Shown in pieces: positions 3,142-13,541 of a stretch of DNA of 13,541 bases. This stretch comes from Candidatus Desantisbacteria bacterium CG1_02_38_46 (GTDB lineage: Bacteria; Desantisbacteria; UBA1551; UBA1559), in the NCBI GenBank assembly GCA_001871015.1, contig MNUO01000092.1, positions 1-13,541 of the forward strand, given 5' to 3'. Below the pieces are notes generated by a model that was given only the letters and a program-made list of their open reading frames with translations, made no database searches and was not told the DNA's origin. The number at the start of each line of letters is the position of its first letter. Within the stretch, counting starts at the first letter, position 1. Position numbers and translations under genes: made by a program.

Positions 3142-3285
3142 GTGAAAGCCCGTGAACTTCCGTGAAACTCTATGAAAACCGGGGTTTGGTGGCAAAGTTC
3201 AAAAACCATTGATTTGACAGCACTTATTTAAGTCAATGACTCTGGTTTTCAAGACCAGCGCCATCAGCCACTCGGCCACCTCTCC
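3142..3285 (-). repeat. Direct repeat copy A: tRNA-Ser 5' half plus arm region
   Basis: This 144-bp block aligns without gaps to 4886-5029, with about 85% identity by hand count and its last 44 positions identical. On the minus strand it begins with the tRNA-Ser 5' half (3242-3285), then 12 divergent bases, then a conserved arm with TCAAATCAATGG and the tandem run TTTCATAGAG, TTTCACGGAAG, TTCACGGGC, TTTCAC with a period of about 10-11. The layout suggests an integrase attachment site: core in the tRNA and arm-type sites beyond (inference). Confidence 0.75.
3242..3285 (-). tRNA. tRNA-Ser(UGA) fragment, 5' half only (copy A)
   Basis: Minus strand from 3285: acceptor 5' strand GGAGAGG, D arm GCCGAGTGGC, and a full anticodon arm with stem CTGGT/ACCAG and loop CTTGAAA (anticodon TGA). 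It stops exactly at the end of the anticodon stem: no variable arm, no TTCGAATC-type T loop and no CCTCTCC 3' acceptor strand follow. It is therefore a non-functional fragment, not a tRNA gene. Confidence 0.8.
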
Positions 3286-4885: not shown

Positions 4886-5029
4886 GTGAAAGGGCGTGAA
4901 CTTGCGTGAAACTCTATGAAAACCGCCTTTGTGTGACAAACCTCAAAAACCATTGATTTGACTACACTTATTTGGGTTGTCGATGCTGGTTTTCAAGACC
5001 AGCGCCATCAGCCACTCGGCCACCTCTCC
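4886..5029 (-). repeat. Direct repeat copy B: tRNA-Ser 5' half plus arm region
   Basis: Gapless partner of 3142-3285. The tandem TTTCACG-type units continue one or two steps further here (TTTCACGGAG, TTTCATTAAG to about 4872). The conserved TCAAATCAATGG and TTTTCATAGAGTTTCACG blocks are kept while the bases between them differ, as expected for protein-binding sites separated by neutral spacers. Confidence 0.75.
4986..5029 (-). tRNA. tRNA-Ser(UGA) fragment, 5' half only (copy B)
   Basis: Identical over all 44 nt to the fragment at 3242-3285, and again broken exactly after the anticodon stem (ACCAG). No T arm or 3' acceptor strand follows. The sequence upstream of the acceptor differs between the two copies, so the shared block starts at tRNA base 1. 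Confidence 0.8.
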
Positions 5030-12377: not shown

Positions 12378-12479
12378 TGTAGTGGTCGAGTTTACTCGAC
12401 TCCAATGTAGTGGTCGAGTTTACTCGACTTTATTGCAGAGCAAGCTCTGCCATTACTGTAGTGGTCGAGTTTACTCGAC
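12378..12479 (+). repeat. Cluster of three GTAG-GTCGAG-TTTA-CTCGAC (REP-like) units
   Basis: Three identical 23-nt copies lie at 12378-12400, 12406-12428 and 12457-12479. Each reads TGTAG, TG, then the perfect hairpin GTCGAGTTTACTCGAC. A different perfect palindrome of the same geometry, GCAGAGCAAGCTCTGC (12435-12450), lies between copies 2 and 3. GTAG at the hairpin foot matches REP elements of TnpA-REP/RAYT type. The cluster forms the upstream region of the O-antigen ligase gene and may shape its leader RNA. Confidence 0.8.
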
Positions 12480-12512
12480 CTTGATTGTCATTCCCGCTCA
12501 GGCGTAAATCAA

Positions 12513-12549
12513 GTTTCAATCCTTGTTTTAATGGACTCGTCGTTCAAAC
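12513..12549 (-). CRISPR. Solitary CRISPR repeat on the far side of the DUF5714-like gene
   Basis: The 37-nt unit GTTTCAATCC...GTTCAAAC is identical to the repeats at 13380 and 13452. It stands alone: no second repeat or spacer lies to its left. Read on the minus strand (crRNA direction) it would be the terminal, leader-distal repeat. Terminal repeats are often degenerate, but this one is perfect. Confidence 0.9.
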
Positions 12550-12607
12550 TTTATCCGCTGTTATACGCTGTTGAGTCCATTTCCATTAACCTTAAACAAC
12601 ATTTTTC

Positions 12608-13354
12608 CTATACTGTTTTAGGATAGTAGAGACACTTCTCCTTTCTACAGTTGGGATGGTTTTTGTTAGAATGAAAACAAGAAATCTTCTCCCGATGAAT
12701 TGGCAGATGAACATTGAAGTACTCCTTCGCTGAATTGTATGCTACACCAAGAGCAGTTCTAACAAAACTCTTACAACACATCGGGCCAACGTCATTAGCA
12801 ATAGTATCAATTGTCCGTGCTGCGATATGCATGGTAATGGCAGATTCTCTATCCTTTGGACATGCTGCACCCAGAATGACACTAAAGGCAGCACCGATTC
12901 CGATAGGCACACCACATACACCAGTGAGAGCACAGTACGGAGGCATGGATTGTTTTTGCGTCCGCTTCATAGCCTCGATAATCTGTTCATTAGAGACGCT
13001 CAATGTGCCATCGTTTTTTAACGCCGCTAGGAGCGATGCAGTAGCAATTAGGCCATGCTCACAACCCAAAAAGGGTATCTTGGGATGAGCCATAAGCAGC
13101 TCGGCTATCGCCAAGGGATCCTTTTCATTCGTGGTGAGGGCGATATCTTTGACGAGATCAAACGCTCCTTTTCCATGGCATTCATCGCAGACATAATGCC
13201 CCTTGGGGCAGCGGACATACCCTGTCTCTTCCTTACCGCAGTAGTTACAGACGACACTGACTGCGGTTTCCAAGTATTCCAGTGACGCACCACAAACCAT
13301 GCAGTTCTCTGCTCTTTTTTCCTCTTCCTTGGCACAACATTCTTTATTCTTCAT
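12608..13354 (-). CDS. DUF5714-like cysteine-rich protein, inside a CRISPR array
   Basis: A 248-residue protein with a zinc-ribbon-like N-terminus: C18-x2-C21, C36-x2-C39, and C49, H53, C56, C59 in RCPKGHYVCDECHGKG, which could hold two metals. A helical middle follows, with LGCEHGLIATASLLAALKND (about 97-116), a glycine-rich segment YCALTGVCGVPIGIGAAFSV (about 140-159) and AARTIDTIANDVGPMCCKSF. It ends in another cysteine cluster, CFHSNKNHPNCRKEKC. I recognise this as DUF5714-like; members occur in methanogens and other anaerobes, sometimes near radical-SAM or methyltransferase genes, and none has a known function to my knowledge. ATG 13354 has a perfect AGGAGG (13362-13367). Only 25 nt separate it from a CRISPR repeat, and 58 nt separate its stop from another. 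No own promoter is evident, so it may be read from the array transcript. Confidence 0.85.
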   Translation of the reverse strand: MKNKECCAKEEEKRAENCMVCGASLEYLETAVSVVCNYCGKEETGYVRCPKGHYVCDECHGKGAFDLVKDIALTTNEKDPLAIAELLMAHPKIPFLGCEHGLIATASLLAALKNDGTLSVSNEQIIEAMKRTQKQSMPPYCALTGVCGVPIGIGAAFSVILGAACPKDRESAITMHIAARTIDTIANDVGPMCCKSFVRTALGVAYNSAKEYFNVHLPIHREKISCFHSNKNHPNCRKEKCLYYPKTV

Positions 13355-13379
13355 GATTATTCCTCCTTCATTTTATCTT

Positions 13380-13541
13380 GTTTCAATCCTTGTTTTAATG
13401 GACTCGTCGTTCAAACAAATGTAAAATGAAAGATATGGATATCGCACATAGGTTTCAATCCTTGTTTTAATGGACTCGTCGTTCAAACAAAAGGAAGGGG
13501 GTGAGGAAGATGGGCAGGTCAATAAGTTTCAATCCTTGTTT
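13380..13541 (-). CRISPR. CRISPR array, leader-distal end (continues past right edge)
   Basis: Two complete identical 37-nt repeats (13380-13416, 13452-13488) and the first 16 nt of a third (13526-13541) are separated by spacers of 35 nt (13417-13451) and 37 nt (13489-13525). On the minus strand each repeat begins GTTTGAACG and ends GGATTGAAAC; the ATTGAAAC end is the typical 8-nt crRNA handle of type I-B/III-like systems, so the array should be transcribed leftwards with its leader to the right. The spacers differ and I see no match to the rest of the window. No cas genes are present here. Confidence 0.97.

Follow-up and report, generated by a model that had tools for sequence, protein, structure and literature searches.

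An apparent integron gene cassette between two repeats of a CRISPR array in Candidatus Desantisbacteria bacterium CG1_02_38_46

The 830-bp insert that separates two CRISPR repeats in this genome is best read, on sequence evidence, as an integron gene cassette that moves horizontally and has here lost its attC hairpin and 5' half-site. This cassette probably entered the array, on its trailer side, a single time, in an uncultured host without a recognisable integron integrase. What would be new is a whole integron-cassette gene, apparently as a one-off, in the place usually held by a 36-base immune memory, and we found no description of an integron cassette inside a CRISPR array in the literature searched (open-access papers). 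The weight of the case is limited by its being a single instance on one contig of one draft genome, a contig that ends inside the array. The window (the whole stretch of DNA analysed, 13,541 nt) is the entire contig C91 of a draft genome of 1.73 Mb that is 88% complete and consists of 133 contigs. Checks within this genome were targeted searches of its contigs.

The window repeats and their regular spacers are a real CRISPR array. The minus-strand repeat GTTTGAACGACGAGTCCATTAAAACAAGGATTGAAAC (37 nt) occurs in three exact copies (Table 1), which is beyond chance, and the repeats are identical and the normal spacers even in size (35 and 37 nt) as in a type I-B array. The original prediction placed a gene between two perfect 37-nt repeats, which is borne out; where two repeats were named, there are three exact copies and a partial fourth. 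Allowing up to three mismatches, the repeat is absent from 97 other genomes, one of them of the same order, and neither the 35-nt spacer nor the repeat core has an exact match among viral contigs. Just beyond the trailer-side end of the array, at 12378-12484, a 28-nt direct repeat occurs three times, and every copy contains a small palindrome (GTCGAGTTTACTCGAC).

Table 1. Features of the array and of the insert in the window.
Feature	Position	Strand	Remark
CRISPR repeat, exact	12513..12549	minus	insert's trailer side
Insert between repeats, 830 bp, homologous to integron cassettes almost throughout	12550..13379	minus	
10 nt (AGCGGATAAA) between cassette half-site and repeat; start of lost attC arm or spacer remnant	12550..12559	minus	alignment
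Cassette 3' end GGACTCAACAGCGTATAAC, R''-type core GTATAAC, same as L011	12560..12578	minus	alignment
DUF5714 gene, intact, 248 aa, cysteine-rich	12608..13354	minus	
25-nt leader; full-length likeness to L026 cassette leader, p 0.003	13355..13379	minus	
Shine-Dalgarno AGGAGG	13362..13367	minus	sequence
CRISPR repeat, exact	13380..13416	minus	insert's leader side
Spacer, normal, 35 nt	13417..13451	minus	
CRISPR repeat, exact	13452..13488	minus	
Spacer, normal, 37 nt	13489..13525	minus	
Fourth repeat, first 16 nt only, contig ends within	13526..13541	minus	

The array is most likely served by the genome's own type I-B system. The cognate cas genes are present on a separate contig, C60, which encodes Cas6b, Cas7/Cst2, Cas5b, Cas3, Cas1, Cas2 and Cas4; next comes an array with 11 or more repeats, which agree with the window repeat in the last 27 of 37 nt. 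Where cas8 would be expected, C60 encodes a 591-aa protein that matched no family. Since the C60 array comes after cas1-cas2-cas4, the crRNA strand is the one that ends in ATTGAAAC, in the window the minus strand; the crRNA direction proposed originally is confirmed by this order of genes and array. The leader of the window array is thus expected past the right end of the contig, and the DUF5714 gene lies in the crRNA sense. Within the C60 array (L095:14367-15074), a block of five repeat-spacer units with the same spacers occurs twice in tandem, 366 nt apart, as either a true duplication or an assembly error.

The insert carries one intact DUF5714-like gene with a perfect AGGAGG site, as had been noted originally. 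Its protein matches the DUF5714 profile (PF18978) over the full length (positions 1-173 of 173, E 7e-49, 166 bits). The start codon is 25 nt from one repeat and the stop codon 58 nt from the other, and a targeted search found no second copy of the gene elsewhere in the genome. Its GC3 is 45%, compared to 28-38% for host genes (neighbours and cas genes). Eight base changes are particular to the window copy, five of them synonymous, three nonsynonymous and none creating a stop; together with the intact frame this small sample suggests recent entry or continued use.

DNA copies of the insert that are 80-87% identical occur in about ten genomes labelled as at least seven phyla, and proteins that are 85-92% identical occur in Proteobacteria, Bacteroidetes, Nitrospirota, Omnitrophota, Desantisbacteria, Actinomycetota (Hakubella), Nitrospinota and Elusimicrobia; these labels are the ones on the records, and misbinning is possible. 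The DNA homology spans about 12559 to 13374-13379, which is almost the full interval between the repeats, and stops nearly at both of them. In several relatives the gene starts after GTTATACGCAATTGAGTCC and ends before GGACTCAACAGCGTATAAC, or close variants of these. Several copies have attC-type sites on their 3' side, called by eye from the order of the boxes rather than with a calibrated attC model: L011 stands within a run of attC-type hairpins, and the sites of L005 and L009 are attC-type by anatomy. When folded as single-stranded DNA, the sites of L009 and L010 greatly exceed shuffles in stability and the first site of L011 does so moderately; the second site of L011 and the site of L005 are no more stable than shuffles. 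A true integron integrase above the curated cut-off was present in the genomes of 4 of 10 relatives and in 0 of 14 controls. The gene tree is star-like across phyla, and of 384 genomes sampled from the L007 genome's phylum, a single one has the DUF5714 gene. It is the DNA homology, the shared ends, the attC sites, the integrases, the star-like tree, the GC3 and the sporadic occurrence on which we base the reading of the insert as a mobile cassette. Captured cargo had been one of the original suggestions, and the homology ending at the repeats, together with relatives that have cassette ends, upholds it and points to an integron gene cassette as the source.

The window copy is a single open reading frame with ends common to the copies in attC arrays, of which the 3' end is kept and the 5' end lost. 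The attC hairpin (R''-L''-L'-R') is absent: the R''-type core GTATAAC (12560-12566) is followed by 10 nt and then by the CRISPR repeat. At the start of the cassette a 5' half-site (GTTRRRY-type) is likewise absent, with a CRISPR repeat in its place. The first 14 nt of the leader alone are not significantly similar to the L026 cassette leader and may be of cassette or of old-spacer origin. The search for an integron integrase in the window's genome, which is 88% complete, gave no match over the TIGR02249 cut-off; a match on C60 proved to be XerD. The cassette had no match among plasmids (DNA), phages (protein) or viral contigs. Because L004 and L007 lie outside integron arrays and without attC, and L009 is solitary with one attC, this cassette appears to exit integrons repeatedly. 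The 3' untranslated stretch at 12559-12607 is near-identical to L011:5742-5790 within an alignment that is merely 83% identical as a whole; this points to either a mosaic cassette or a conserved element at the 3' end. At L004:1920-3600, copies of the start of a downstream gene (about 90 nt, at ~2740 and ~3490) flank the DUF5714 cassette together with a toxin-antitoxin-like pair, in an apparent operon.

As for the route of entry, we somewhat favour a cassette in circular form that became joined to one of the array's repeats. An integron integrase could have inserted it, in an attG-type event, at the GTT with which each repeat begins, or it could have recombined there with the aid of similarity between repeat and cassette end; a later loss of the attC hairpin and the adjoining spacer would have left two whole repeats. 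The repeat resembles the 5' ends of the L005, L007 and L035 cassettes (p 0.001-0.004, a similarity noticed post hoc), and its similarity to those of L004, L011 and L026 is not significant. Plain insertion by IntI fails to explain the 5' junction, because neither the 5' half-site nor the attC hairpin is present. Cas1-Cas2 may instead have taken up a linear 830-bp piece of the cassette as an outsized spacer, with the repeat duplicated on integration. One step would then suffice to leave both flanking repeats whole and perfect, the cassette homology stops some 0-10 nt short of either repeat and leaves no clear remnant of a spacer, and the genome encodes Cas1, Cas2 and Cas4; an 899-bp plasmid-like fragment between repeats of locus F in Sulfolobus solfataricus (PMC4390879) also speaks for it. 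However, although the insert has a whole repeat on either side as a spacer does, its 830 nt are about 23 times the normal 35-37 nt, and no report of such uptake was found in the literature searched, so that we regard this route as rather unlikely. Less likely again, in our judgement, is the broader claim that CRISPR adaptation integrated a whole 830-bp mobile gene and that the array serves as an integron-like platform for gene capture and expression. The original alternative of a product of recombination between two arrays gained no specific support. Three further observations on the junctions were dropped. A target duplication (GATAAA near both junctions) implies an original spacer of 8 nt; a hairpin of the cassette end (AATGGACTC) with the repeat (GAGTCCATT) is no more stable than shuffles (z -0.33); and the repeat-to-repeat distance of 867 nt equals 12 units of 72.25 nt, a fit that about a third of lengths would show equally.

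An assembly chimera, in which cassette and array were wrongly fused at the repeats, would suit a 133-contig draft with a contig ending within the array, and integron cassettes are common in mixed samples. It would, however, need two independent false joins, each exactly at a repeat edge, which makes it improbable; moreover, the cassette was seen beside such repeats in no other locus, and the DUF5714 gene was not found elsewhere in the genome. The proposal that fares worst, and that we consider highly improbable, is a domesticated CRISPR accessory gene, as the original prediction had also offered, or a CRISPR-regulated module comparable to CreTA. The position within the array, the sense orientation and the intact reading frame would suit it, but the suggested search for CRISPR repeats flanking DUF5714 homologues found no CRISPR-like array (at least three repeats) at the other DUF5714 loci examined, which argues for captured cargo and not for an accessory gene. 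A three-copy match at L008 was an uninterrupted 63-nt tandem repeat and not a CRISPR array. The closest relatives of the window gene are in integron arrays or solitary, one of them adjoining an HMA/SAM-methyltransferase gene, and CreTA consists of degenerate repeats close to cas genes together with small RNAs (PMC10097628).

Among known systems, the nearest precedent is the S. solfataricus fragment mentioned above, which is pNOB8-like (PMC4390879). In both cases DNA of a mobile element, about 0.8-0.9 kb long, separates two repeats; that one is archaeal and, according to the review, a partial plasmid match, whereas the window holds a complete integron-cassette gene. The same review states that arrays seldom contain mobile elements and suggests that the acquisition of spacers may go along with structural change. 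Insertion sequences in CRISPR arrays, such as ISH4 and ISC1359 (PMC4390879), also interrupt an array with mobile DNA; ISC1359, however, lies inside a spacer, whereas the window insert is flanked by whole repeats and has no transposase. Genomic attG sites are an established target of cassette insertion (Loot et al. 2024, cited in PMC12901181 and PMC12444791). Cassettes of this type outside integrons share with the window copy a single promoterless gene, a 3' half-site, copies in integron arrays and a solitary position. What sets the window copy apart is its place between two CRISPR repeats and the loss of both attC hairpin and 5' half-site, which means that it is no clean product of IntI. The window joins two gene-capture systems that are usually studied separately. 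If real, it would mean that a CRISPR array is able to house an intact gene of foreign origin, and perhaps to express it, and that the repeats of this array, each beginning with GTT, may serve integron cassettes as landing sites. Targeting of CRISPR repeats by IntI and integration of gene-length DNA by Cas1-Cas2 become testable questions.

The gene had been said originally to have little room for its own promoter, and indeed no good promoter was found. A weak pair (9/12) lies across repeat and leader, with a start that would fall about at the Shine-Dalgarno; it is one of seven such weak sites observed in the region compared to 2.0 expected in shuffles. Integron cassettes usually depend on an outside promoter. 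Here the CRISPR leader would supply one, the gene would be read from the leader's transcript, and Cas6b, by cutting in the repeats, would release an mRNA with a 5' end consisting of AUUGAAAC and the 25-nt leader with its AGGAGG. That the gene is expressed in this way, from the transcript of the array and freed by cuts in the repeats, is plausible, as it fits the anatomy: the gene has the sense orientation, its own Shine-Dalgarno and no good promoter, and Cas6b is in the genome.

With respect to function, the MbdU model (NF045648) matches the window protein with E 5e-94 and 316 bits, short of the cut-off of 600, so that membership of this selenoprotein family is not reached. MbdU is a metal-binding double selenoprotein, and its family includes described selenoproteins (PMC13188914). 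The N-terminal cysteine-rich and DUF5714 regions of the two proteins align, although the window protein covers just 238 of the 468 profile positions (32-269). In L011 an HMA/SAM-methyltransferase gene precedes the DUF5714 protein in the same cassette, and the N-terminus of that DUF5714 protein is weakly TusA-like; this partner and this N-terminus make a metal or metalloid role plausible. An AlphaFold model (pLDDT 84) had no convincing match in the PDB. A DUF5714 gene of Methanocorpusculum (L048:5001-5684) has one in-frame stop, a TGA, and reads through it if TGA is selenocysteine.

Elsewhere in the window, positions 1340-2717 are an insertion sequence with an integrase-core (rve) transposase gene within inverted ends. 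No tRNA was found in the window by ARAGORN. A 144-nt direct repeat (3142-3285 and 4886-5029, 85% identical) is like the anticodon part of tRNA-Ser, and its two copies flank a nucleotidyltransferase gene and adjacent genes.
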